Source: a virus. Taken from it: a stretch of DNA of 64,000 bases. The position numbers and the translations under genes are program-made. The stretch covers positions 1 to 64,000 of the IMG/VR virus record IMGVR_UViG_3300044825_003205. One strand, given 5' to 3'. This document shows, one piece after another, positions 38,668-54,315 of the stretch. Position 1 is the first letter of the stretch; every line of letters begins with the position of its first letter. The notes beneath the pieces are model-generated. The model was not told where the DNA came from. It saw nothing but the letters and a program-made list of their open reading frames with translations, and did not search any database.

Positions 38668-41600
38668 TTATCTTGTAGTGGTGGCACTAGAATTATTAAC
38701 GAACACATAAGTATCTGTGCTTTCCACGGTGCCACCGCTAGTTATAATTTTAATTTTGCCTGACACCTTTGTGATTGGTGTAAAAGTAATACCGGTCGCG
38801 TTAATCGACTGAATTGTGACTTTATTTTCATTCAGAAATACTTGAGTGTTACCGAGTAGATTTGTTCCTGACAAACTAATTGGTTGTATAACTCCCGAAG
38901 TTGTTTGACTCTTTGGGTCAAATTTAGTAATCGTTGGTGGTAAACATTTTGGTTTACCTGAAGTACTTGTACCCTGATTGTTTGTAGGATTATTTTGTCT
39001 TTCCGGGTCATTCGTTCCGACTGTCCCGTCTATTAGTTTTCTAACGTCAATTTGTTGTATACCTAATGAAGTGTTCGTTGCTAGTTGATTGAAAGAATTT
39101 AAACCTGCTTCCAATCTTGCACCGTTTTGTTTGATGTTGTCATTAGTCCTTCTTCCCGAATAGAAAAACGGTTCACTCACTGAACTTTTAGTGTTCGGAT
39201 AGTAACAATTATAGAATAACCATAAACCTTCCTTTTCGATTAAGTTTCTTCTTTGTCTTAGTCTTTCATATAAAAATTCGACAAACTTATCGGTTGTGTT
39301 GAAAACCGCCCAAGGGGAATCTCTTAATTTATTTTTCACACACATATATGTTTTTTCAAAGTAATCATTATATGTAGGAGAAAAATTTTCACTTAGATTT
39401 ATTGCCGCACTATAATTGTTTCCATAACCCATGAACTTATTTTCTTTAAATGTTGAGACATAACAAATAGAATAGATAATTGCCTTCATACTTATGTCCG
39501 TAACATTTTTCTTGATAAGAACATCATTTATCGAAGTTATCATCTGTTCTGGTGTTATATTTGTTGCAACAAATTTTGTACTAACGAATTGGTTATTCAG
39601 ATATACCAAATCTACGTTATTAACACAAGAGTTTTCAGGACTTGGTGATTGTTTCGCATCTGAAACTTTTTTATCCGCCTTTCCTTGGTCTGTAGTTGGT
39701 GGTACCGATGGTTTTTCCGAACTATTTTTTATGAGTGCTTCTACCTTCGTCAGTAAGTTTTGATTTATACTTTGTAGGTATTTGTCAATTTGAGGATAAT
39801 CAAATACAGCCTGTCTTATTCCATTGAATTGTGTTTGGAACGAACCTGGTGTTATAGTGTGAGTAACCTCTTGAATCATATAAGGTCCATTGAACATAGG
39901 AACATGTCTAAGATTAAAATACATTGTAGGTTGAATCATAGCATTACCCACAGCTACAACTGTACAAGGGTAACTTCTTTGGTTATATAAATTATATAAT
40001 CCTACGTTCTGTGTTGCGTTACCAAGTCCGCTTGCAAGTGTTGACATGTTGTATACCTGTGATATAGCTTCAGCAGTTGCTTTACCTGAATCTTGTCCTA
40101 CCTGAAACGAATAAAAAATATTTTGATTTCTTACTCCGATATCAACGTTAAACCCAACACATTTATTAGATAATCCCCAATCTGTTTTTCCCTGTTGATT
40201 TTCAACTAATGGATTGTCTGAAGCCCTCCTCAAATCAAACGCATCTGTTTTGAATCTATAATAGTTGTTGTCGGGTAATTCCAAATAATTAGATGGTTTA
40301 CCTGTAAAGAAACAAACCATTTTCGGACCTGAATCTCTATAGTCAACACTTAAGAAAGTTCCCCATAAGTTGTTAGCAAAATTTAAAGTACCTTCAGGTT
40401 TCCTATTCGAAATACCATCAACATCTTGAACGTTATAAAAATTAACATATGCCGGTAGATTCATGATTGAAAAATTATTGTCAATCAATATACCAGCTAA
40501 AAGTGTGTAAACACTCATAATTTCGTTCATAGAACTTGTTGATAACATACTCTTGAGTCTGAAGACATCAATCAGTAAATCGTCTCCTATGTTTCTTGAA
40601 GCCCTATCTAAGAAAAGAATGTCTTCAAATATTGTTTTACTTTCATAATCTCCTCCTGCAATCCATTTGTCATTTAGTGCTTTGAATGTTTCATATATTG
40701 TGACCTTGGATTGTTGTCCGTCAACAACTGATTGTTTTGTTGTTTCTTGAACCTGACTTTGTCCACTCAAATTTTGTCTCAAGTTGTTCATTACACTGTT
40801 TATGAATAAATCCTGCAGACTTTGACATTGGTCAATATATTGCTGAAGTCTGACTCTAAATCCTGCGACGGTGATGGATTGTAGTTTTTGAGTTGCATAC
40901 ATTTTTATAATAGGTGCAAGTATCTGAATATTCGGAACAGAAAATTTAATATTATTGTCTATGAAAAAATCTGTGATGTAAGACCCTTGGTCTTTGTACC
41001 TCAAAGCCTCAATTGTCGAAAAACCAACTTGTAGTTCCAACTCTAACCATTCTTTTGGGTATTGTTGTTTGGATAGTCCAAGAGTTATTCCTCCTGTTGT
41101 AGGCAGTGAACCTTTCACATAGGGTTCGAAGTTTATTGGGTCAACAAGTTGTGGTGTTGTGTTATGTGAGAGGAACGATGCAAAAATTCTCCTATTATAT
41201 TCAGAGGGATTACCGTATTTGAATACAATATCATATTCCATGAAAGTAGTAAGTTGGTTATTTACAACATCGAACTGTTCTCCAATTGTCTTCGTGAAAA
41301 AGGTTTCTTGTGGTATATTTGATGTATTAGGTTTGACCAACATCATATTTTTAAAAAGTAGTTGAAAGTTTCTAAAAACGTCATTCGCCTCTGAGGCAAA
41401 ATTGTTGTAGGATGCAATACTAGTATCTGTAATATCTGAAATAGGTTTACTGAAGTTCAGGAACTCTTCTTCAAACCTATCTAGAATATTTTTTTCAAAA
41501 ACACCGAACACATCATCGATTTTCATATAGTTCTCCAATTCAGAAAATCTAAATGGGACCATGTCGATTGCATTTGGTTGGTATGTGTTTAAGTATTCAT

Positions 41601-44600
41601 CGTATTTAGGTTGTTTTATCTTCGAAGTATCAAAATACCCAAAGTTCGATGCAGACCAAAATAATCTAGCTGAGCCATTGAATACCGCTTTGTTTCCTAC
41701 GAAGGTATAACCATTCGCTATTCCCTCGGGAGTTACCAAAGCTTCATTCGCCTCATTTATGTTTGCACCGAAAGACGGTACAACATACAACCTTTGTATG
41801 TCACCAATTATCGGTGGTTGACACTCTTGTGTTTTTGCACTGAACTCGACATTTGCTGGAAGCAATACGCTCCAAGGATAAACGTTAAAAGTCGTGTCGT
41901 TAAGACCTCCTACGTTTTCTATATTTCCTCCTGGCAAATTAACAATCTGCAGCCCTCTATTCACGAGACTTTGTAATTCTTCGTTTGTATAATCCTTGAA
42001 TAAGTCGTATCCATTGTAAAAAACGTTGAAGTCGTTTAAAACTTTGGGATAAAACCCTGGTTGTATTTTATATGTTGTGTTATTGTTTGCTTGGAGTTGG
42101 ATGTCTATTATCTGTGATTTATCCTTATTACCACTTGTATTAGTAAAAGTATATTTTTTCCCTACATTTTTGGTGATTGGGTCGTAAGCCGAAACATAAT
42201 CGAAATCTTTCCAAGCCTCCGAAATAATATCTACACCTGTCTGTTTGTAAGTTTTATACCTATGCCAAATAGAACCAAACTTGAGAATCCACGCATATGG
42301 TAATTTGTGAATCGCACCAAATTTCTTCATTACCGCAAACATATAATTCATATCGTCTATCTGAGATATTTGAGTAATTGTTTCCGATAAAGCATTGTTA
42401 GTCACAGAGGTAGATAGAGATTTCAGTTTTTCTCTCAAGGAAATCAAAGGTAATGAATTCAAGAAAAGATATGCCGCAACTTTATATGGTGTCTTATTAC
42501 CCCTTCTCCAATTATCAACACCTTGTAAAATTGAGTTTACAAAGAAGGGAGTGTTCAACATAGATGTTGTTGTTACAACAGGTAATCCTCTACCCCAATA
42601 AAAAACCGCAGGTGAGTCAGTAAATGTTTTACCCACTGTCATTGGCAGTGTAGTCGGGATTGCTAAATTATAAAAGTTACTTAACTCGAAGTTGTTTTGG
42701 ACAAGATTCGATTGGTTTTCCGGTGTTTGGAAGGCAAAGTTTGTAACAGGTCTATTAGTGTCGAAGTTCTTTAAATCAGTGAAATTCGATATTACATTTT
42801 GCTCTTTGTAAATTCTTAAACTTTCCGTTGTCTGATACCTTTTTGGAAAAATATTTGTGTTGTTTCCTACCAAGTTTGTTTCACACCATTTATCATCGGT
42901 AAATGGATATGTATCTATGATTGATAATACATTTGGTGTAGTATCAATAATCTTTTCTAGCTGAACCGAATACTTGGCTAAATTATTTTGTAACGTTGGT
43001 CCTATATCATTTAGTTCTCTAATTTCAAAAGAGTTTCTAAGATATCCGTTGATATATGGGGTTACAAAAAAATCTCTAATATATTGTTGATATAACCTAC
43101 CAGTACCTTGATTGGAAAAACTATATAAAGTATTTTGGTAATTTTGAGCAGTTATTTGATAATTTTTCAGTTTGTATGTTAAATAAGGTGAGCTTGTGCC
43201 CAAGCTTGTTTTGATGTTTTCACTTTCGTAGTTTGTTACTAATAGGTTCAACTCATCTTTTGATGTTCCTTGTACTCTACCTAAACCCGTATAAAAAGAT
43301 GTCAAATATTGTCTTTCCCAAATTTCATAAAAAAATTTAATCTCATCCTTATTTCTATACGCAATATTATTTTGAGGAAATTCTAATGAGTTTATATTCA
43401 ACAAGTTTGTTTGCGAAGAATTTTCTAATGGTGGAGGTGCAATTGGTGATTGAAATTTTTGAGTTAGACCTTTCAGGTATTCTTCAACAAATTCCACTTC
43501 AGGCCAAACGTCGTATCTATTACCTTTGGTAACATCAACAACAGAAGGGTCCGCTAAATATTTCAACTGAAACTTACCCTTTTTGTCTTCATTCGTTTCG
43601 ACAAAAAATTGTGGCCATGGGTATATTGGAATGTTCGAACTGTTCAAAGTTGAATTGGGTGAAGACCCTTCCACATTTTGTTTTGCGTCAGAACTTACTG
43701 CCGCAGACTCGTTGTTTAAAATTGCACTTCTTCTGACTGGGTCGTTCCTCAAACTCCAAGATTTTGTATGAACTTCGTCCATTAGTCTAATGAAACCTTC
43801 TGTGGAAGCCATAATGATTGCTGAAATATTTCTTACAGTCGGTCTGAATCCTAAACCTATCTTATCATCCTCTAATTTTTTCGCAAGTGTTGCAGTAATC
43901 TCAGATTCATAATCACTTAATTTTTTATTCGCTTGAGCTTCCATTGACCTTATATTATCTATAAAGGTTTGTAAGTTGAAAGTATTGTCGGATAAGAGTT
44001 GGGTTTTTCCTGAGTTTTGCTCTTTGACAAACTTAGGTAAAAGTGAAGGGATTATAAGGCTTAAAGCATCTTTATACTCCTTGGAGGTTTCATTCTCGAA
44101 GAAAACTCCTCTTTCCTTTAAAGTTTCTAAACCATCAATTTCCGCCAAATTAAGTTTTGGTTCTGTGAAAATATCTTTAGTGATTGGGTTATTTATGACA
44201 GACTTAGAACTAACAACACCCAACGTTCCATTTTCCGCCAAAGCTTTATTATATTCTTTGATGTATTTTGTTAAATCACCAATAGCATCTGTTTTTGCTT
44301 GAGGTGAAAGGCCTTGTTTATAGGTAAATCTTTTCTGACCATCTTTCAGGACTATAGGATTTGGGTTCAAATATGTGTTGAACCATGAATCATTAGATTG
44401 ATATATTTTTTCATAGTATTTTGTGAGAGTTGATTTATAACTTCTACAATCTGTTAGTGGTTGAACATCAGCTTGAGTATATTGGGACATGATGTTTTTC
44501 TCGAATGTGTCTATTTTCTGAATTAGCTGATAGAATGTAATTTCGGGAAAGTCAGGCTCTATTAATCCTTTCGCCTTGTATTCACTGTATACTTGTGATA

Positions 44601-45543
44601 TCTTTTCATACCCCCTCTCACTTACCACCGAAGTAACAATATTTTGTTGGTTATTCGTTGGTGCGGAAGCACCCTTTCCGTTTACCGATTCTTGTTTGAC
44701 TTGACCAACAGTTGGGTTTGGGTTTACTGTTAAATCATATCTTTTGGAGTACATGTGTGGTGTTGCCAACAAATGACCCACTAAAATTTCGTTCAGAATA
44801 TTAAATTTATATCCTTTGAATTCCAAACTCACTTGGTAGTTACCACTGAACGAGTTAAACCTTGCATTAAATTTTTCTAAATTAAGTTGATATCTGATTG
44901 CCTGTCCATAGTAACCCTTAAGGGTTAAATAGAAAGGTGGATAAGGTAAATTGAAAAATGCCGCATAAGGTGAATTATCACCCAATTGAAATAATGCTCG
45001 TCCTTGTACGTCTTCAAGTTCTATGGTAACACTTGGTATGAAGCTAAGTCCAACCCTAACATTTATACTTGTTATACCCAAAAGTCCATTATCTACTGCA
45101 CCGTCAACTCCATTAGTAACAACACCAGCTTTATAAGATGCTGTTTTTTCTCTTGGGTTACCTTGTATTGTTTCTGTTGGTTGATTCACCCCCATACCAT
45201 TCAAACCTGTTTTTGGCGACTTACCTGTCGTATTCAAACCTGTCAATTCGTCGTAGTATGAAGTTGAAAAATAATCTTTTTCGTTAGGTGCCAAAAAATT
45301 TATCTTGGCAATTGAAACTGTGGTTGCTGCGTTTTGAGGACTTCCACCTACAGCTAATTTTGTTCTTGGTAGTACTTCCGCCTCCAAATTACAAAACATT
45401 ACAAGATTCTCGTGGTCAACAAGTCTTTCCTGTATGTTACCATTCGCATCAATAGTTTTGTTGGGGTCAACTACAATGATGTTGTTGTAATCGAACTCAA
45501 CCAAAATACCACCCGCGTTATCTGGAAGTAAGTTACCTACCAT
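38668..45543 (-). CDS. Giant baseplate hub protein with C-terminal TIG domain
   Basis: A 2291-residue protein. Residues ~140-270 look like the first domain of gp27/gpD-type hubs (FIPSVTIELEDVQGRALF, then YLTLKGYYGQAIRYQLNLEK). Residues ~1855-1920 match the closing hub domain (PCTVVAVGNAMIQPTMYFNL, then GPYMIQEVTHTITPGSFQTQ). In between are long Asn/Tyr-rich insertions. Residues ~1970-2130 form a helical module containing ENKFMGYGNNYSAAINLS that could be a cell-wall-acting domain, but no catalytic residues were assigned. An IPT/TIG-like Ig fold (ITKFDPKSQTTSGVIQPISL) closes the protein. It follows the LysM wedge gene with an 11-nt overlap. T4 splits these tasks between gp27 and gp5; here they may be fused. 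It is the largest gene in the window. Confidence 0.75.
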   Translation of the reverse strand: MVGNLLPDNAGGILVEFDYNNIIVVDPNKTIDANGNIQERLVDHENLVMFCNLEAEVLPRTKLAVGGSPQNAATTVSIAKINFLAPNEKDYFSTSYYDELTGLNTTGKSPKTGLNGMGVNQPTETIQGNPREKTASYKAGVVTNGVDGAVDNGLLGITSINVRVGLSFIPSVTIELEDVQGRALFQLGDNSPYAAFFNLPYPPFYLTLKGYYGQAIRYQLNLEKFNARFNSFSGNYQVSLEFKGYKFNILNEILVGHLLATPHMYSKRYDLTVNPNPTVGQVKQESVNGKGASAPTNNQQNIVTSVVSERGYEKISQVYSEYKAKGLIEPDFPEITFYQLIQKIDTFEKNIMSQYTQADVQPLTDCRSYKSTLTKYYEKIYQSNDSWFNTYLNPNPIVLKDGQKRFTYKQGLSPQAKTDAIGDLTKYIKEYNKALAENGTLGVVSSKSVINNPITKDIFTEPKLNLAEIDGLETLKERGVFFENETSKEYKDALSLIIPSLLPKFVKEQNSGKTQLLSDNTFNLQTFIDNIRSMEAQANKKLSDYESEITATLAKKLEDDKIGLGFRPTVRNISAIIMASTEGFIRLMDEVHTKSWSLRNDPVRRSAILNNESAAVSSDAKQNVEGSSPNSTLNSSNIPIYPWPQFFVETNEDKKGKFQLKYLADPSVVDVTKGNRYDVWPEVEFVEEYLKGLTQKFQSPIAPPPLENSSQTNLLNINSLEFPQNNIAYRNKDEIKFFYEIWERQYLTSFYTGLGRVQGTSKDELNLLVTNYESENIKTSLGTSSPYLTYKLKNYQITAQNYQNTLYSFSNQGTGRLYQQYIRDFFVTPYINGYLRNSFEIRELNDIGPTLQNNLAKYSVQLEKIIDTTPNVLSIIDTYPFTDDKWCETNLVGNNTNIFPKRYQTTESLRIYKEQNVISNFTDLKNFDTNRPVTNFAFQTPENQSNLVQNNFELSNFYNLAIPTTLPMTVGKTFTDSPAVFYWGRGLPVVTTTSMLNTPFFVNSILQGVDNWRRGNKTPYKVAAYLFLNSLPLISLREKLKSLSTSVTNNALSETITQISQIDDMNYMFAVMKKFGAIHKLPYAWILKFGSIWHRYKTYKQTGVDIISEAWKDFDYVSAYDPITKNVGKKYTFTNTSGNKDKSQIIDIQLQANNNTTYKIQPGFYPKVLNDFNVFYNGYDLFKDYTNEELQSLVNRGLQIVNLPGGNIENVGGLNDTTFNVYPWSVLLPANVEFSAKTQECQPPIIGDIQRLYVVPSFGANINEANEALVTPEGIANGYTFVGNKAVFNGSARLFWSASNFGYFDTSKIKQPKYDEYLNTYQPNAIDMVPFRFSELENYMKIDDVFGVFEKNILDRFEEEFLNFSKPISDITDTSIASYNNFASEANDVFRNFQLLFKNMMLVKPNTSNIPQETFFTKTIGEQFDVVNNQLTTFMEYDIVFKYGNPSEYNRRIFASFLSHNTTPQLVDPINFEPYVKGSLPTTGGITLGLSKQQYPKEWLELELQVGFSTIEALRYKDQGSYITDFFIDNNIKFSVPNIQILAPIIKMYATQKLQSITVAGFRVRLQQYIDQCQSLQDLFINSVMNNLRQNLSGQSQVQETTKQSVVDGQQSKVTIYETFKALNDKWIAGGDYESKTIFEDILFLDRASRNIGDDLLIDVFRLKSMLSTSSMNEIMSVYTLLAGILIDNNFSIMNLPAYVNFYNVQDVDGISNRKPEGTLNFANNLWGTFLSVDYRDSGPKMVCFFTGKPSNYLELPDNNYYRFKTDAFDLRRASDNPLVENQQGKTDWGLSNKCVGFNVDIGVRNQNIFYSFQVGQDSGKATAEAISQVYNMSTLASGLGNATQNVGLYNLYNQRSYPCTVVAVGNAMIQPTMYFNLRHVPMFNGPYMIQEVTHTITPGSFQTQFNGIRQAVFDYPQIDKYLQSINQNLLTKVEALIKNSSEKPSVPPTTDQGKADKKVSDAKQSPSPENSCVNNVDLVYLNNQFVSTKFVATNITPEQMITSINDVLIKKNVTDISMKAIIYSICYVSTFKENKFMGYGNNYSAAINLSENFSPTYNDYFEKTYMCVKNKLRDSPWAVFNTTDKFVEFLYERLRQRRNLIEKEGLWLFYNCYYPNTKSSVSEPFFYSGRRTNDNIKQNGARLEAGLNSFNQLATNTSLGIQQIDVRKLIDGTVGTNDPERQNNPTNNQGTSTSGKPKCLPPTITKFDPKSQTTSGVIQPISLSGTNLLGNTQVFLNENKVTIQSINATGITFTPITKVSGKIKIITSGGTVESTDTYVFVNNSSATTTR

Positions 45544-45856
45544 AATAATAAAAATAATTTTCTAATGCACCTTTATAGTCTTGTAATGATGGTAGAAGAG
45601 GAAAAGGAATTGTCAATATTGCACCGTCAGGTATATAATTTTCCAAACCTCCATACTGTGGATTTGCTTGTAAAATAAGCCAACCAAAAAAGGGACTACC
45701 ATAAAAATCTTGAGAAACCTTATCAAGTCTGCTTCTACCGACCTTATAAATAAAAGTCTTGTCTGATGGTTTATTTGGTAGATAAACAAATGGCACAACG
45801 GTCTGTTGTCCGTTGATTAGAAAATCCGTGTATCTGTTATAATATGCGAATGGCAT
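45533..45856 (-). CDS. 53: gp53-like baseplate wedge protein with LysM fold
   Basis: A 107-residue protein whose residues ~35-90 form a LysM-like module: YKVGRSRLDKVSQDFYGSPF, LILQANPQYGG, then IPDGAILTIPFP. T4 gp53, which joins wedges around the hub, contains such a LysM fold, and similar short tail proteins X exist in other myophages. It is shorter than gp53 (196). Its start shares one base with the stop of the 1662-residue gene (TAATG), and its end overlaps the giant hub gene by 11 nt, so the three are translationally coupled. No peptidoglycan binding need be implied; in baseplates the fold is structural. Confidence 0.8.
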   Translation of the reverse strand: MPFAYYNRYTDFLINGQQTVVPFVYLPNKPSDKTFIYKVGRSRLDKVSQDFYGSPFFGWLILQANPQYGGLENYIPDGAILTIPFPLLPSLQDYKGALENYFYYYGR

Positions 45857-48800
45857 TAGTTAAATTTTGTTTTTGTTATTACGATTGGTCCTTGACTATC
45901 GTTGAAGGTTTGATTATTAGTGTTTGTCGCTGGTAGTATAAGTGAATTAATAAGTGTTTTTCTATTTGACATCAAAATATCTTCTGTCGTATTTCCTGGT
46001 TCGTTAGTGAAAGTCATATCTCTAACTTGTGTTTTATCAACTTCCACAAAATTTATAAAGTTTTGTAGTTGGTTTGTTTCCATATAATTTAAAAATTCTA
46101 ACGCTGCCTTATTTTGTTTTTCGAAGGCAGGTTTTGCCTTTCCTAACCAATAAGCATCAAATTCTTTTTGCAAATCTTTATCAACGTCTTCCAAAAGTTT
46201 TGCATTACTCAAAATATTACCAATCATTTCATTTTTGAATGTCTCATATTTTTTACTATCAGTGACATCTGTACTCAGTATTGTATATTCTCTCCTAAAA
46301 CTTTGACTATTAAATTCGGAACCTGTTCCAATTGCCCTGAATGTATCATTTTCTGAAGCTGAATTCTCTCCAGTTTCAGGAAGAATTACCAAATTGTTAT
46401 ATGGTTTACCCTCGAAAGTGAAAGTATATTTATTATTTAGTTTTGCAAGATATTGATTCAGACTTGTTTTAATTTTCACACCATCCGTTGTGAGACCATT
46501 TAGTGTTGTACTTCCTGATGTATAATAAACAACTGGGTCTTTACCATTTGGTTGATACCCGTCTGAACCGGTTTGAGTTGGTGTTCCATAGGTAATAATA
46601 TTATATCTCGCAATAAGGTTATTGTAACTTGTTTGTTGGTTTGTTAATCCCTGTATTACTGTGAATACTGAATTTGTAAACGTATTTTTTTTCCTATTTA
46701 AAGTGTCTTTATAATTATTTTTTAAAGTTCGTAATACTTTTTTCGAAAAGTTTTTTACGTCCATATATTTCAAGAAATCATCTTGGTCTGATTCAATATC
46801 AGCCAAATATTTTTGGAAAATAGTATCGACTCTTTTCTGAATCACGGAAGGTTTTCCGTATAGGAAAGTATCAACACCGGAACCTATTATTATTTCTCCT
46901 TTAGTATAATTTCTACCTAAAGTCGCTTGTTGTCTAATTGACTCGTTGTATTGTGCTAAAATTTCTTTGTTCTTGTTCATGATGTCTCTGAAATAATTCT
47001 GAGTACCTTCAACAAAATCAGACATGAATTTTGTGTATGAGGTAACTCCGCTTACTCCGTTTGGAGTGGAAACACTTTGAACAATATTACCAATAGTCGT
47101 TGAATTACTTTGACCAGGGTTATTTTGAACTTGGTTCTGTGTTGGTGGTGCTTGTTGTCCGTAGAGTGAAGCGAACTCAGCATCAAGACTTGCCAAACTT
47201 TCTGTATCAGTTGCTTCAGCTCTGTCGTCATAAACCTCGGTGTTAGCATAGTAATTAAACGTGAGTGCATTCTGTATTTTATCTACCGCATCTTTGATTC
47301 CACTTCCACCGACAAACTTGAAACCTAATGTAACATTTGCAATCATTGGTTGAACTCCGATACCTTCTGGATTTAAATCCAAACTTTCATACTGTAATTG
47401 CAATGACTCAGGTATAATTTTAGTATTATAAAAATCTCCCACTCTTAAGACTAGTACAGGTGGTGTACCAAAAGCAGTATTCACCGCATTACTATAATCT
47501 AAAACCTGTTTTCCATTTACTGATTTTATTGTCGGTATCGTGTCACCAGGTCTCATGCATTGATTCAAGAATGTTAGTCTCGAATTCAATCCTTCGGGTG
47601 TTGTTGAGTGGAAACCGGGGTGAAAGAACTTTAATTTGTCTTTCAAATTATCATAAACCATGGGAGTGTCTTCTTTGATACTTTCGAAATAATCACATTC
47701 TGTGAGTAAAAGTCTTAAAACTCTTTTGGACAAATTATCGGCAAGCCTTGTTCTTTGGACCTCAACAGTTTCTGTTGTAGTTTGTTGTGTTATTTGTTGT
47801 ACCGACTGTGTAGTTGTCGTAACCTGTGGCTGAGTGTTTGTAGGTTGTGTGTCAGTTATTCCCTGTTGTATCGGTGTTATTTTCACATTAGAAATCAAAA
47901 CTCTTCTACAAGCCATAGCGTTGACTGTATATATTTTTTTTGTTGCCGCCTGACTATCTTTAGTGTCTTCTTTACAGTTGTATTTTACAGATTCCTTATT
48001 AATCATTTTGGTGGTGACCTCACCTTCTTCCCCTAATGCGACTGAGTCGTTGAAAGTTATTCCACCTTTAATTAATTCCCCTAAAGGTTTCTTACCAGTA
48101 ACAGATGGATAACCTAAAATAAATTTCTTGACTGATTCATTTCTTCTTTCAGAAAGACTTTTATTGTATGCCACACTTGCCGGTGCTGAAGCTGTTCCTG
48201 ATAAGGTAAAATTAATAGATTCAATTTGTGCAGCGTTTTCATAAATTTTATCTAATTGCTTCGAAATTTCACTATAATTATTTTTTATTACTTCAGTGAA
48301 AAATGTTTCAACAACACTTGGGTTCGATGTGTATGGTGTGGTTTGATTTGGTGCTTCTTTTACATACGTAGGTTCCTGCTTTTCATAATCATTATAGTAA
48401 TTTTTAAAACTAGTTACATTCCCTTTTGGAATATCATTATCGAAATAGAATCCTTGACCTCTCAATGCTTCTTCGATAGGAGCAACTGAAAGAGATGGAT
48501 TTGCCACTTTTTGATTATTGATATCTGAACTTGTATTTACCCCTGTCTGAACGTCTCTCTTAATCCAATCTACCTGTTCTTTTGTAAGTTGTTTCGAATC
48601 TAATTCAGTTTGTATGACATATAAATCGTTCGGATTTGCCAAAGGATATCTTTTAGCCAGCTCATACAAATCGTATTTCACACAACCAGCAAAGAAAGAT
48701 TCTAATAAACTATTAATTTTATCTCTGTTTGTTTCATTATTTAAAACTTTGTTAACGACTAAATTCAAAACTGATGGATGGTCAACAACTATTTTCCATG

Positions 48801-50844
48801 AAAGACTACCTCCCCTACTTGTGTTACTATAAGTGTATATTGGTTCAGGTCTTCCGATGAAACTCGAATCTTTCCATGAAGCATTTGTACTTTCACTGAA
48901 AGTTAGTCCATATGGTGGAAACCACATGATTCTACCTCCGTTAGGTCCTCTTTCACACACCGGTAAGTCAGAATAAGTAAATCCGGGTTTGGAAGAACTT
49001 CTCCATGCTAAATTTTCCAAAGAGAACATATATTTCTTTACATGACCATCTGTGTCAGGATTTCCGACTAAATTTGTCGAATCAGCAGTACCATCTTTCC
49101 TGTTTGGGTAAATGTTTAAATTGTATGTACTATCTAAAACAGAATATGAAATCTTTCTGTTTTGTGTGGTTATACCTTCTGTTTTTTGTAAGTTACTAAA
49201 ATTTAGATATGGTATATCTTTAGCAAACACTCTACAATATTCCACTCCTCTCTCCTGTCCAATTGCACCTGTATATTTTATAACTCTTGAACCTTTAGTT
49301 AATTCTTTATATCCATCATTGAATACTTTACTAACTTGGTCTATAGCATTCCCAACGTGTTGTAGTCTTCTCCCTCCAGCTGGTTGACTATCAATGAGCT
49401 TCTGTGTGTCATCTAAGATTGAACCTTCCCTAAATTGAAGGTTATTCGATTCTGTATTTACATAAGATGATGGTCTGAAATTTTCATCAATATCTAAAAT
49501 CTCTCCTCCAATACCAACTTTTTTACCAGCATTTGCCCTATACTTAGGTGATACCCAAGTGAATCCTCCTTCAATACCACCACCATTGCTATAGGTTGGT
49601 CCATTTGCACCTAACTTAACTTCTCTCGAAGGTCCTTCGTATAATTGGGCGAGTTCTTGGGGTCCGTATACAGGTGATTGTACTTCTCTTGCAAAGTTGT
49701 CAACGGGTAAATCACCGCCCGGTGAGAAAACTCTTGATGGTTCCGATGTTATAGAACCAATATAGTAATTACTATTATTTGTGTTTGTTCCAACTATGAC
49801 ACCACCAAGTCTATCGAAAATAGACCTGTTGTATCCAGGTTTAAATCTGTTATAATCTAAGTTACCAAATAACCTGGATTTCTGACCACCACCTGTATTT
49901 TCTAAAAAAATTTGAGAACCTGTTTTAGTTCCACCTAATAATCTATTAAAAAACTTTCCTGTAGTACTTCTTCTAAAAGCGTTACCTAGTTGTTGTATTG
50001 TTGTTGGTTGTCCAATTTGTATTGAAGGGTCAAAGTAAGACCCGGGTATTGGCGAAAGTGGAATGATTGAACCGGCCAATCTTAATGCGAAATCTGTTGC
50101 AGCTAAAATTGGACCGGCCGGAACTGTAATTTGATAGTTAGGCTCAATCACAGGTATTCTACCTGTCAATAAACTAAGAACATCTGTTCCACTTCTAACA
50201 TTGAAAATGTTAATCCTTCCTGTTGTCCTTTGTATTATTTCCCTACCAATCCTTGTCTCAAACTCTTTTCTTAGGATTGTAGCTCCGAGTCTAGCAATGT
50301 ATGAGTCAGAACTTAGTAGTCCGTTACTACCCAGAGGGTCTGGAGACAAAAGTATGGATACTGGATTGTATGATGATGGGTTAAAAGTTGAGGGATATGG
50401 TTGTCCATTAGTTGCTCGGTTGTTATTTAGTTGAACTGTCTCGAGTGTTGCAATATATTCTCCCGCATCTGTAACGTCATTTGGGAATGAGTAAGCGTTG
50501 ACACTTTTCCATCTTTTAGCCTCTATTGGTGCTTGGTCTAAGATATTAGCATCTTGATAACCATATTCTCCCTCGTTTGATTTCGTACCGTTGAGAGAAC
50601 CTGGGTCGGGAACTTGTTTGTACCCTCCCTCTGCTCCGTATTGATTGTTTTTATAAAGTTGTTGAGCGAACCTCGGTTCGTCTATGAGAACATCAGGTGA
50701 GTCTATTACCGCAGAGTCTGATAGGGTTGTATCGTAGTCTATTGGTGGCGTAATTCTACTTGGTGACTTTGGATAAGGCACAAGGTTCTTTACGATAATT
50801 TTTTTTCTGAATGACTCAGAGTTTACGAGTAATGGACTTGCCAT
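45856..50844 (-). CDS. Large tube-cap/baseplate protein with OmpA-like domain
   Basis: A 1662-residue protein. Around residues 640-710 is a tube-like domain as in gp48/gp54-type tail-tube caps (GLTFSESTNASWKDSSFIGR, PEPIYTYSNTSRGGSLSW). Around 1125-1206 is a second related domain (LDLNPEGIGVQPMIANVTLG, KIQNALTFNYYANTEVYDD). Between them, at about 860-985, lies an OmpA-like module: SGTASAPASVAYNKSLSERR, VKKFILGYPS, and closing ACRRVLISNVKI, equivalent to the NRRVEI end of OmpA C-domains that bind peptidoglycan. The rest is long Gly/Asn/Ser-rich sequence without assignment. It is preceded by a CTATTTAT motif 15 nt upstream and precedes the gp53-like gene. Role: cap linking tube to hub, perhaps with cell-wall contact during injection (inference). 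Confidence 0.75.
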   Translation of the reverse strand: MASPLLVNSESFRKKIIVKNLVPYPKSPSRITPPIDYDTTLSDSAVIDSPDVLIDEPRFAQQLYKNNQYGAEGGYKQVPDPGSLNGTKSNEGEYGYQDANILDQAPIEAKRWKSVNAYSFPNDVTDAGEYIATLETVQLNNNRATNGQPYPSTFNPSSYNPVSILLSPDPLGSNGLLSSDSYIARLGATILRKEFETRIGREIIQRTTGRINIFNVRSGTDVLSLLTGRIPVIEPNYQITVPAGPILAATDFALRLAGSIIPLSPIPGSYFDPSIQIGQPTTIQQLGNAFRRSTTGKFFNRLLGGTKTGSQIFLENTGGGQKSRLFGNLDYNRFKPGYNRSIFDRLGGVIVGTNTNNSNYYIGSITSEPSRVFSPGGDLPVDNFAREVQSPVYGPQELAQLYEGPSREVKLGANGPTYSNGGGIEGGFTWVSPKYRANAGKKVGIGGEILDIDENFRPSSYVNTESNNLQFREGSILDDTQKLIDSQPAGGRRLQHVGNAIDQVSKVFNDGYKELTKGSRVIKYTGAIGQERGVEYCRVFAKDIPYLNFSNLQKTEGITTQNRKISYSVLDSTYNLNIYPNRKDGTADSTNLVGNPDTDGHVKKYMFSLENLAWRSSSKPGFTYSDLPVCERGPNGGRIMWFPPYGLTFSESTNASWKDSSFIGRPEPIYTYSNTSRGGSLSWKIVVDHPSVLNLVVNKVLNNETNRDKINSLLESFFAGCVKYDLYELAKRYPLANPNDLYVIQTELDSKQLTKEQVDWIKRDVQTGVNTSSDINNQKVANPSLSVAPIEEALRGQGFYFDNDIPKGNVTSFKNYYNDYEKQEPTYVKEAPNQTTPYTSNPSVVETFFTEVIKNNYSEISKQLDKIYENAAQIESINFTLSGTASAPASVAYNKSLSERRNESVKKFILGYPSVTGKKPLGELIKGGITFNDSVALGEEGEVTTKMINKESVKYNCKEDTKDSQAATKKIYTVNAMACRRVLISNVKITPIQQGITDTQPTNTQPQVTTTTQSVQQITQQTTTETVEVQRTRLADNLSKRVLRLLLTECDYFESIKEDTPMVYDNLKDKLKFFHPGFHSTTPEGLNSRLTFLNQCMRPGDTIPTIKSVNGKQVLDYSNAVNTAFGTPPVLVLRVGDFYNTKIIPESLQLQYESLDLNPEGIGVQPMIANVTLGFKFVGGSGIKDAVDKIQNALTFNYYANTEVYDDRAEATDTESLASLDAEFASLYGQQAPPTQNQVQNNPGQSNSTTIGNIVQSVSTPNGVSGVTSYTKFMSDFVEGTQNYFRDIMNKNKEILAQYNESIRQQATLGRNYTKGEIIIGSGVDTFLYGKPSVIQKRVDTIFQKYLADIESDQDDFLKYMDVKNFSKKVLRTLKNNYKDTLNRKKNTFTNSVFTVIQGLTNQQTSYNNLIARYNIITYGTPTQTGSDGYQPNGKDPVVYYTSGSTTLNGLTTDGVKIKTSLNQYLAKLNNKYTFTFEGKPYNNLVILPETGENSASENDTFRAIGTGSEFNSQSFRREYTILSTDVTDSKKYETFKNEMIGNILSNAKLLEDVDKDLQKEFDAYWLGKAKPAFEKQNKAALEFLNYMETNQLQNFINFVEVDKTQVRDMTFTNEPGNTTEDILMSNRKTLINSLILPATNTNNQTFNDSQGPIVITKTKFN

Positions 50845-50884: not shown

Positions 50885-52828
50885 TTAGGCGGTGGTGTTC
50901 TTCATAGAACCGAAATTCATTGTTTTCATTTTTTCTACAACATTTGTTGTAAATGTTTCCTTAAGTCTTTCACTATTGACTAAATTGTCCTCTATTTTTG
51001 CATAATCCATTCCACTGTCCCCTTTGATATTTAATTCAAAAATTGCCGGTTTAGAAGCATCGAAACTTACAACAACCTGTTTATCACTGTCAACCATTGT
51101 TGTTTTTATCTCTCTTACAATTTCAGTTACTGTGGTGTTTCCCATGTTGTTTGCTACTGGTGTTGCAATTCTTCCTACCTTTGAATCTAAGTTATCTATT
51201 TTTGTATTAATGCTTGAGGTTGTTGTTTTTATCTCACCCATAATTTCACCCGAAGTATTCGGATTGGCGTTCGCCATTTTATCTATAGTTTTTACAGACC
51301 CTTTTTTTAATTGACTTTCGTCGTATTCTTTCTGAACGAACTTTTGAACCGCTCTACCAATCTCGGTATTGTTATTTGCATTTTCCTGTAAAAACTTCTC
51401 TATTCCCGTTCTTAGTTCCTCATCTCCCTTACCTTGAAGTTTTTGTAGTTCTTTGATTGCGTTTTCCACTTCTTTCATACCACCCTCACTCAAACCATCT
51501 CCTTTACCCACCGCACTCACAAAGTTTCTTATTAGGTCCATAGATTTTTCGGCACCATCTCTGAACATTTTCAAATCAACACTACTCGCCAATGCGTTTG
51601 AGCCGGCAGCTAACACTCCACGAGCACCTTCAGCTCCTTCTCTAACTGTTGGTGTAGAAACTATCCCAAGAACCACTTTGTCTTTGATTGACTTAACGTC
51701 ACTTTTTACTAAAGTAAAAGCATCCAATTGAGCTCTCTGTAAGTCTTCAACTGTCTTTGGACCTTTTTTTTGTTCTTCTATTAGTTTGTCTATCTGTTGT
51801 TGTGAAAGTTTTTCTAATTGTAAAGTATCATCGCCAACTTTGATTTCATATTTACCACCATCCCCCATCTTAGCAATATTTGCCAAATATTTCTTATCCT
51901 CTTCATTTTCGAATTGTATGTCAGGTCTAATCTGTGAGAGTTTTTTATCTAATTCCGCAGCATTCAAAGACATTTTTGAGAGTTCTTGACTACTTAAACC
52001 AGTCTGTTTTTGTAATTCTCTCATCATCAACATACCCTGAGGATTAATTTTAAACTGTCCTGCTTTTTCATCGAAGTAAGCAAATTGTTTGGACATATTC
52101 ACAATACTATTTTGTAAACCCTCTGGGTCATTCAACGATTTGTTCATCAATTGGAAGGGGTCTGTCAAATCTCCTGCTGAAACACCTAATCTTTGGAAAG
52201 CCGATGCTAATTCTATAGCTCCTTCTGGGTCTAATGCTCTCTCAGCTAAATCCATAGTAACTCTCATGTCGGTTTTTAACATGGCCGCCTGTGCCGCCAT
52301 TTTTGTAAGTCCTACAACACCATCCTGAAAATTAAACCTGTTCATAGCCGACATATCGTTAAGAACATTGCGCATTATCAACCTTGTGTTTCCTCCAACA
52401 CTTTGTATGTATTGAATTGATTCTTCTATTTTTCCACCCACTTGAGTAAACTCTACCCCTACCTCTGAAAAACTTTCTACAATAGTTTGAACTTCTTCCC
52501 CCAAAACTTGACTACTTGCAAATAATTTGGATACTTGTTCTTCTCCAGCAACAACATTTCTTCTTGTTGCTTTACCAACGGCTTCGATAGTTTCGACAGC
52601 GTCTTTAAGGTTACCACCCAATCTATCAACTGCAGGAGTGGCATCAGTAACCGCCCCCATGAGTTCTTGCATTCTCTGTCTACCAATTCCGAATTGTTTA
52701 ATCAACTCTTCAGCACCACCAACCATGTTAGCAAAACCTGCTGCAATATCATCACTACCAATTTTTGCCTCATCATATAATTTTCTGAGTGCTTCGGTAA
52801 GACTTTTGACTTTATCCTCTTCGTTCAT
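50885..52828 (-). CDS. Tail tape-measure protein (gp29-like position)
   Basis: A 647-residue, mostly helical protein with tape-measure features. It has an N-terminal run of amphipathic helices with Gly/Ala breaks (DIAAGFANMVGGAEELIKQF), repeated IEAVGKATRR/FSEVGVEFTQ patterns, QLMNKSLNDPEGLQNSIVNM, and a C-terminal Asp/Lys-rich beta region (VVVSFDASKPAIFELNIKGD). T4 gp29 is 590 residues, so the length fits a T4-sized tail. Position also fits: it is directly downstream of the chaperone-like pair and upstream of the tube-cap gene. TATTTATATAG lies 17 nt before the ATG, right after a hairpin at 52855-52879. Confidence 0.78.
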   Translation of the reverse strand: MNEEDKVKSLTEALRKLYDEAKIGSDDIAAGFANMVGGAEELIKQFGIGRQRMQELMGAVTDATPAVDRLGGNLKDAVETIEAVGKATRRNVVAGEEQVSKLFASSQVLGEEVQTIVESFSEVGVEFTQVGGKIEESIQYIQSVGGNTRLIMRNVLNDMSAMNRFNFQDGVVGLTKMAAQAAMLKTDMRVTMDLAERALDPEGAIELASAFQRLGVSAGDLTDPFQLMNKSLNDPEGLQNSIVNMSKQFAYFDEKAGQFKINPQGMLMMRELQKQTGLSSQELSKMSLNAAELDKKLSQIRPDIQFENEEDKKYLANIAKMGDGGKYEIKVGDDTLQLEKLSQQQIDKLIEEQKKGPKTVEDLQRAQLDAFTLVKSDVKSIKDKVVLGIVSTPTVREGAEGARGVLAAGSNALASSVDLKMFRDGAEKSMDLIRNFVSAVGKGDGLSEGGMKEVENAIKELQKLQGKGDEELRTGIEKFLQENANNNTEIGRAVQKFVQKEYDESQLKKGSVKTIDKMANANPNTSGEIMGEIKTTTSSINTKIDNLDSKVGRIATPVANNMGNTTVTEIVREIKTTMVDSDKQVVVSFDASKPAIFELNIKGDSGMDYAKIEDNLVNSERLKETFTTNVVEKMKTMNFGSMKNTTA

Positions 52829-52854: not shown

Positions 52855-52879
52855 AGAAGGGTTATAATTTAACCCTTCT
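52855..52879 (-). terminator. Hairpin between the 59-aa ORF and tape-measure gene
   Basis: 10-bp stem (agaagggtta with taacccttct), 5-base loop. It contains the stop codon of the 59-aa frame and is followed after 2 nt by TATTTATA. Confidence 0.6.
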
Positions 52880-53048
52880 GATTTTCTTGAATCCATTTAT
52901 CAAGTAGATATTTCCTTACAAAAATTGGCATTTTCTCGAAATCAGTCCAACTAACTTTCAACAACGTTGATAAGTAATAGAATTCGTCGAGTTGACCTTT
53001 CCTATAATCAGAAGAAAGGGCGAAAGAAATCAACCCCAAAACCAACAT
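52869..53048 (-). CDS. Out-of-frame small ORF after the gp26-like gene; possible tail-assembly chaperone partner
   Basis: A 59-codon frame in the +1 (equivalently -2) phase relative to the gp26-like gene, overlapping its last 41 nt. The part beyond the overlap reads as a real protein: YRKGQLDEFYYLSTLLKVSW then DFEKMPIFVRKYLLDKWIQE. The MPxxxRKYLxD motif resembles short proteins and C-terminal extensions that pair with hub/chaperone genes in T4-like phages. It lies immediately before the tape-measure gene, where many tailed phages encode a frameshifted chaperone. It may start at the ATG at 53048 (AGGAG about 15 nt upstream is rather far) or be made as a fusion by frameshifting. I saw no canonical slippery heptamer in the right phase. 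Its stop codon lies inside the hairpin at 52855-52879. Confidence 0.6.
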   Translation of the reverse strand: MLVLGLISFALSSDYRKGQLDEFYYLSTLLKVSWTDFEKMPIFVRKYLLDKWIQENQKG

Positions 53049-53751
53049 TAACTGTAAGTTTTTCTCCTGATGGGGTTGTTACTATTTTAGACATATCGAG
53101 TTTTGGTTCGTTGTCATTCATAAACTTCTTAATGTATTTGGAATCTGCAATTGGTAATTGTTCTACAAACTTAGCAATTTCTCCCTTATCTTGTGTTCCG
53201 TTGACCTCAACTATTTGTCGTTGTAACTTTAATGTTACATAAGGAGCAACTCTTCCTTGGGGATAGGAGTCTATAGTTTTACTTATTTCTCTAATTTCAC
53301 CATATGTTAATGGTTTTAACTTGATAGTTGAACCAGTTTTGGGTAGAGTAGTTATAAAGTACCCATCAGATGTTGGTTCCTGACCTTTTAAAATTGACAT
53401 TTGGTCCAAAGTCACGTTAACTTGAAATTGTTTCCCTGTCTTGGGGTCAGTAGTTGTAATCATCATGTCGGGACCAAAAGCGGTATTCCTCAAAAAGATT
53501 AATACAGATTCAACATCACCTTCCAACATGTCTTCAACTTTTAAATCAGGTTCGTAAATTTTGTTCCTGAGAAGATTGATTGCAAGATTATCACCCCCTG
53601 CCATGATAATATTTTCATCATAAGCGGTTAGATATCCAACTTTAATTGACTTTTTCTTGTTCTTATAAAAAATCCCCTCTGATGGTAGAGGTACTACGTC
53701 GTGTGGTAAAGAAATGTTCTCTTGACCATACATTCTTGATTGTTCATCCAT
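53008..53751 (-). CDS. 26: gp26-like baseplate hub/tail-assembly protein
   Basis: A 247-residue protein resembling T4-like gp26 hub-assembly proteins. It has the N-terminal pattern LPSEGIFYKNKKKSIKVGYL then TAYDENIIM (the P-S-x-G-x-x-Y...LTxxxE layout), an AFGPDMMITTTDPKTGKQF strand pair, and a C-terminal end in VDFFRPFF, similar to the aromatic-Pro end of such proteins. It is encoded between the tail tube gene and the tape-measure gene, which is where assembly chaperones sit in most tailed phages. A perfect 12-bp hairpin lies just before its start (53763-53794). The next reading frame overlaps its end (see the 59-aa frame). Confidence 0.7.
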   Translation of the reverse strand: MDEQSRMYGQENISLPHDVVPLPSEGIFYKNKKKSIKVGYLTAYDENIIMAGGDNLAINLLRNKIYEPDLKVEDMLEGDVESVLIFLRNTAFGPDMMITTTDPKTGKQFQVNVTLDQMSILKGQEPTSDGYFITTLPKTGSTIKLKPLTYGEIREISKTIDSYPQGRVAPYVTLKLQRQIVEVNGTQDKGEIAKFVEQLPIADSKYIKKFMNDNEPKLDMSKIVTTPSGEKLTVNVGFGVDFFRPFF

Positions 53752-53826: not shown

Positions 53827-54315
53827 TTAGTAAACCAATACACAACGGTCCATTCTCATAGAAGCAGTAATTGTTGCTAAACCATCTTGGTTGTATGCCA
53901 ATGTATTAAAATTCACATCAGTCAAGAAAGTTCCATAAAGAATCCACTTCTCAACTACAACACCTGTTGGGTCCAACATCTCGAGGTCAATATCTTTTTT
54001 GTAACCCGCAGCATAACCCATACGACCTGTTACAGACTCAGCGTGTAAACGAACCCACTCCATGAGAGCTTGCGCTGCTGAAGGACCAATCGGGTCTCTA
54101 AATGTCACGTTAAGTGCTTGCCAGTTGAATCTACCGGCTACATATGTAGATGTATTTAAAAAAGGTATTTCTGTTGCAGCGATTTGAATATGTGGTCTAG
54201 CCGTACTCTCTACAAACCATTCGTTGATACCCAAACTTGAAGGAAACCTTAGGATGAATCGATTCTGACGTTTCGGTTCGTAAGGTATCGGCATTTTCAT
54301 TAATAAATCAGCCAT
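53827..54315 (-). CDS. 19: Tail tube protein gp19-like
   Basis: A 162-residue tube protein of the T4 gp19 family, almost exactly the length of T4 gp19 (163). Typical segments are the N-terminal MPIPYEPKRQNRFILRFP, a central ALNVTFRDPIGPSAAQALME, WVRLHAESVTGRMGYAAGYK, then DIDLEMLDPTGVVVEKWILY and a C-terminal GLATITASMRMDRCVLVY. It polymerises to form the inner tube inside the sheath. A TATATTTATA motif lies 36 nt upstream and a perfect hairpin follows the stop at 53763-53794, so it may be an independently expressed, abundant product. Confidence 0.92.
   Translation of the reverse strand: MADLLMKMPIPYEPKRQNRFILRFPSSLGINEWFVESTARPHIQIAATEIPFLNTSTYVAGRFNWQALNVTFRDPIGPSAAQALMEWVRLHAESVTGRMGYAAGYKKDIDLEMLDPTGVVVEKWILYGTFLTDVNFNTLAYNQDGLATITASMRMDRCVLVY

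Follow-up and report, generated by a model that had tools for sequence, protein, structure and literature searches.

The window, a stretch of 64,000 nt that forms part of the 134.6-kb virus record of an uncultured T4-type phage, carries on its minus strand a tail module in the order sheath, tube, a 247-aa ORF of the T4 gp26/gp51 family (ORF1, the G part), a +1 reading frame (the T part) and a 647-aa ORF (Table 1). ORF1 including its stop codon occupies 53751..53008(-). The +1 frame, which as an ATG ORF covers 53048..52869, lies in a phase one base downstream of ORF1, i.e. +1/-2. It runs about 45 codons beyond the ORF1 stop, with the sequence MPIFVRKYLLDKW, and ends 40 bases before the presumed tape-measure gene, which starts at 52828. 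Both the protein-like overlapping frame and its end just before the tape measure had been put forward in the original prediction, and both were found, the latter by position. The G/T locus thus sits between the tail tube gene and a tape-measure gene that is named by position only, as the 647-aa ORF gave no significant match to PHROG or Pfam profiles. In Flavobacterium phage immuto a tape-measure gene is found at the corresponding place downstream.

Table 1. Features of the G/T locus and its neighbours, with positions in the window
Feature	Position	Strand	Basis or remark
Tail tube protein (gp19-like), upstream context	53827..54315	(-)	phrog_4542, E 7e-21
G part (TAC-N-like, short form), 247 aa	53011..53751	(-)	T4 gp26/gp51 family, PF12322 / phrog_150
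RNA hairpin upstream of the slip codon (predicted to stimulate +1 shifting), with lower stem CAACCCCA/UGGGGUUG and inner stem	53031..53078	(-)	Covariation
Slip codon UUU (codon 243), P site, +1 re-pairing as UUC	53023..53025	(-)	TTT in 139/139 distinct loci
A-site codon CGC (Arg 244)	53020..53022	(-)	Rare in phage; CGN in 139/139 distinct loci
Zero-frame stop UGA of short form	53008..53010	(-)	Same codon UGA or UAA in all relatives
T part, +1 frame, 50 aa, three helices	52872..53021	(-)	Selection, hhalign chain, AlphaFold2 pLDDT 84
+1-frame stop	52869..52871	(-)	
Presumed tape-measure protein, 647 aa	50885..52828	(-)	Position only

Profile searches with the G part returned Pfam PF12322 with an E-value of 3.9e-9 (37 bits, cut-off 24.5) and phrog_150 with an E-value of 1.4e-13, and by these profile matches the G part is a member of the T4 gp26/gp51 family. 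The G and T parts were modelled separately with AlphaFold2 and not as a fused protein. The G model (pLDDT 86) matched baseplate-hub chaperones in BFVD, and a search of BFVD with the T model gave no significant match. No significant match was obtained in a fold search of the PDB, where the G fold gave a marginal hit to the HK97 tail assembly chaperone 2OB9 (prob 0.51, TMt 0.48, E 1.3).

Conservation of the phase change, a check proposed with the original prediction, was evident in two sets of sequences. Close relatives, found through other parts of the protein, comprised 80 IMG/VR loci that yielded 55 distinct full sequences; ORF1 was 247 aa long in 55 of 55, and wherever the sequence was long enough the +1 extension ended at codon 293 or 294. 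Wider relatives were collected by a pattern scan for the coding sequence of FFRPFF followed by a stop; 117 of 118 loci encoded a relative, down to 48% protein identity, and approximately 100 further distinct loci all retained an LSS-type T part, except for a few cut by the contig end. No relatives were found in GTDB genomes with the patterns used. After dereplication at 3%, the T region of 37 relatives had 0 stops in the +1 frame and means of 5.8 and 4.2 in the other two; only the +1 frame was stop-free in every sequence. Synonymous sites were saturated (pS 0.76) and nonsynonymous change was limited (pN 0.164; dN 0.185, dS saturated). Judged from these substitution patterns, the T frame is under strong purifying selection, more than chance would give.

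Frameshifting and reinitiation had both been considered possible routes to the T part. No ATG, GTG or TTG that could start T precedes the conserved SSDY in 5 of the 55 close and 11 of the 139 wider distinct loci, and because of these 11 loci reinitiation is disfavoured, even though the window itself carries an in-frame ATG for T and many relatives share a +1-frame ATG at codon 235 or a TTG at codon 236 or 238. Synthesis of T as a separate small protein, whether by internal initiation or by termination-reinitiation, from the ATG in the overlap (53048) or a nearby TTG, would agree with the annotation of T as a separate gene in KVP40 and the cyanophages and with the related locus L215, where T has its own ATG after the G stop. 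However, the ATG of the +1 frame is not conserved among relatives, the AGGAG found in the window is, as had been pointed out, distant (about 16 nt from the overlap ATG) and indeed too distant, and the phase, the length of ORF1 and the slip codon are all held constant by selection, which separate genes would not need. We consider a separately initiated T protein very improbable; of the two routes frameshifting is favoured, and it is best read as a +1 shift. Its site is best explained as UUU_CGY (53025-53020) and not as the TTTTGGGG tract singled out originally. The tract is conserved, but it cannot be the site of the frame change in all relatives: four loci (L050, L051, L056 and L058) have a +1 stop at codon 240, and the frame must therefore change there between codons 241 and 248, a region that reads GAY TTY TTT CGY CCT TTC TTC TRA. 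In 7 of the 139 distinct loci a stop in the +1 frame lies 3' of GGG (codon 239). The window reads GAT TTC TTT CGC, and since codon 242 is TTC in its lineage, UUU_C is the only place there with good +1 re-pairing in the P site. Of about 18,500 phage codons 3 are CGC and 445 are AGA; among the Arg codons 91% are AGA or AGG and 9% are CGN. The invariance of codons 243 and 244 has to be read with the reservation that the pattern-scan loci were pre-selected for TTT and CGN, but the independently found IMG/VR loci agree. It is scarcely credible that the shift is of another type or lies elsewhere, be it a +1 shift at GGGG, a Mu-like -2 slip or slippage during transcription of the T run. A -2 slip would place the Phe-tRNA on UCU, and the run in the window lineage is only TTTC, too short for transcriptional slippage, although TTTTTTC is present in most relatives. 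The GGGG, which starts about 12 nt upstream of the UUU, would let the tRNA re-pair perfectly in +1, and its codon is almost fully conserved (136/139), but it was rejected as the slip site, as the +1 stops of the four loci fall between GGGG and UUU, and as the tract is a hairpin arm in which the compensatory changes to GGTG and GGAC break the run and keep the pairing.

In 37 dereplicated sequences the only fully synonymous-identical codons that keep the amino acid are 229, 239, 243, 245, 246 and 247; the invariance of codons 245-247 is due to double coding. Codon 239 has its pairing partner in codons 226-227 (ACCCC/GGGGU); an inner stem completes the hairpin, in which the GGGG tract, 9-12 nt upstream of the slip site, constitutes the paired 3' arm. 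Across 74 dereplicated sequences pairing in the lower helix amounted to 97.7%, and covariation was supported by 90 double-changed cells as compared with 34 expected (0/500 shuffles). Exchanges of G-C to C-G and of A-U to G-C were seen in the inner stem, and each of the three loci without GGG restores pairing, two by GGT with GCA and one by GGA with TGT. Between the stem and the slip codon there are 5 nt in the window if the 8-bp version is taken and 7 nt with the consensus, and a comparably strong upstream hairpin was present at only 1 of 225 other codons. A downstream hairpin, CCUUUCUU/AGGAAAGG, was rejected for lack of covariation. That the upstream hairpin stimulates the +1 shift by pulling on the mRNA is inferred from its position and covariation. 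Precedents for upstream hairpins that stimulate +1 shifting exist (PMC12661321, PMC6321510, PMC3639245): artificially placed hairpins do so on 70S ribosomes (PMC6321510), and in yeast ABP140, where a natural hairpin lies 6 nt from the site, a model of mRNA pulling was proposed (PMC12661321). The frameshift could be real and the hairpin conserved for some other role, such as mRNA stability, chaperone autoregulation or slowed translation. In the other +1 lineages of the family we found no comparably strong upstream hairpin, apart from megaphage LR756508, so that there is no support for the hairpin as something common to every +1 lineage, and it may modulate the shift without being required for it. 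Throughout the clade, on the other hand, the base of the hairpin keeps a constant distance from the slip codon beside it, in the geometry of the proven ABP140 stimulator (PMC12661321), and full synonymous invariance in the gene is restricted to its last codons. We therefore regard a role unrelated to frameshifting as unlikely, though it remains a serious possibility, and stimulation of the shift as the preferred reading.

The +1 arrangement extends to deep lineages of PF12322, which keep the T frame in +1 at UUU_C, UUU_U or CUU_U. G followed by a +1 T part was found in Streptococcus phage GXN1 (UUU_CGU), Bacillus phage SP-15 (UUU_CAC), Listeria phage LIS04, megaphage LR756508 (UUU_CUA), and Microcystis phage Mel-JY01 with the L205 clade (UUU_UGG). 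Unannotated +1 T frames were also noticed in Flavobacterium phage immuto (CUU_UGG; L315:2495-3458), a cultured phage and possible test system, and in Rhodothermus phage RM378 (UUU_UGG; L316:2498-3377). KVP40, the cyanophages and Agrobacterium phage Atu_ph07 differ in that their T part lies in -1, at U_UUU_UUC, a motif invariant in 80 of 80 cyanophage-like loci. The gp26 genes of cyanophages and KVP40 (L228:3968-4869, L229:3974-4989 and L230-L309) end in this invariant motif, with a small 'gp51-like' ORF in -1 that probably supplies the T part of a -1 fusion despite its annotation as a separate gene. In the related lineage of L215 (4001-5050) the T part has a longer N-terminus and begins, in the +2 frame, with an ATG that closely follows the G stop, a layout that suggests a split into two genes. 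In T4 itself gp26 lacks T and gp51 contains it: Pfam coverage is 1-206 of 208 residues for gp26 and 1-201 of 249 for gp51, and of the two only gp51 reaches the end of phrog_150. The match to phrog_150 extends to position 273 of 282 for the fused megaphage protein and to 248 for that of the window. Homology of the T part to the C-terminus of T4 gp51 can be linked only through intermediates, by a three-step chain of hhalign profile comparisons from the window to L205/megaphage (91.5%), from these to cyanophage/KVP40 (82.4%) and from there to the gp51 C-terminus (73.3%), with 0/50 shuffles at each step. Direct profile comparison of the window T part was weak (1.6% with cyanophage T, 0.3% with T4 gp51 alone), as was direct hhalign of the fused profile with T4 gp51 alone.

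Family membership, synteny, the conserved phase change and the T homology chain to T4 gp51 strongly support the recoded tail-assembly chaperone that had been suggested from the overlap, and we are highly confident that the locus encodes the chaperone pair of a T4-type contractile tail, with a short G and a long GT produced by a +1 frameshift with an upstream hairpin. There are no expression data, and the occurrence of the shift and its efficiency are inferred. Most ribosomes would terminate at 53008 and yield G. A minority would shift +1 at codon 243, where the Phe-tRNA in the P site would re-pair from UUU to UUC with the rare Arg codon CGC waiting in the A site, and would read on through the T part, the predicted GT fusion of 293 aa consisting of G codons 1-243 and the T part. 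On leaving the ribosome the hairpin, whose base lies 5-7 nt before the UUU, may refold, pull the mRNA back and so favour the forward slip. A chaperone function is inferred from lambda and T4; if lambda G/GT is taken as the model, G would coat the tape measure and GT would recruit tube subunits.

Like lambda G/GT, the locus has a short and a long form in overlapping frames between the tube and tape-measure genes, but lambda shifts -1. With the T4-like TAC genes it shares the family PF12322/phrog_150 and a T part chained to the C-terminal extension of gp51; it differs from T4, where the two forms are separate genes, by its overlapping frames with T in +1, and from the cyanophages by the absence of their -1 arrangement at U_UUU_UUC. 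A parallel in mechanism may be yeast ABP140 (Fenton et al. 2025, PMC12661321), with +1 P-site re-pairing, a slow Arg codon in the A site, a conserved stem-loop about 6 nt upstream and reduced synonymous change, although the phage site is UUU_CGY read by a 70S ribosome and that of ABP140 is CUU_AGG. Influenza PA-X (UUU_CGU) also has UUU in the P site followed by CGN, a type of +1 site known from it through a reference title quoted in PMC5009743; there no stimulator is reported, the ribosome is eukaryotic and the gene is unrelated. RF2 (prfB) likewise combines a +1 slip of a pyrimidine-rich P-site codon with a duplex upstream, whereas the phage site has CGC and no stop codon in the A site and no Shine-Dalgarno sequence 3 nt upstream.

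The identity of the G/GT pair in T4-like phages is not new. The 2022 study by Vladimirov et al. reportedly states that frameshifting is retained in several T4-like groups. T4 gp26 was identified as TAC-N and gp51 as TAC-NC (Vladimirov, Gautam & Davidson 2022, Virology 566:9-15), according to accounts of that work in PMC10885494 and PMC12846349; the PRFect report describes some T4-like phages with two separate genes, one short and the other long and fused, and the phage Adele paper describes polyT signals in their TAC-N genes. For a long time T4 was named as the exception among long-tailed phages, in which tail-assembly frameshifting was otherwise said to be conserved (PMC5009743). What does look new is that the shift goes +1 and that a natural hairpin lies upstream: in the open literature, to which our search was confined, we found no report of a +1 shift in the gp26/gp51 family, nor of a natural upstream hairpin that stimulates +1 shifting on a bacterial ribosome. 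We think it reasonably probable, though far from settled, that a large clade of T4-type phages makes its chaperone by a +1 shift driven by a natural forward-pulling upstream hairpin and that its cyanophage relatives shift -1. If so, this would be the first natural hairpin of such kind for +1 shifting on a bacterial ribosome known to us, and the covarying hairpin would extend to phage the forward-pulling stimulator proposed for ABP140 in 2025 in work that foresaw it in other organisms. The G/T split runs through the whole gp26/gp51 family; its branches use -1 shifts, +1 shifts or separate genes, and the family offers a natural experiment on the evolution of recoding signals around a constant product. 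For annotation, two ORFs now listed apart or missed should be joined.

Downstream of the tape-measure position the minus strand contains two very large ORFs, one of 2291 aa (38668-45543) without a Pfam match and one of 1662 aa (45856-50844) without a significant PHROG match. At the end of the record, at about record bases 134130-134630, there is a tmRNA gene (L313:10130-10552 (+); Rfam RF00023, 106 bits), and it is followed by the only tRNA gene found in the record, a tRNA-Glu (L313:10561-10630 (+)).
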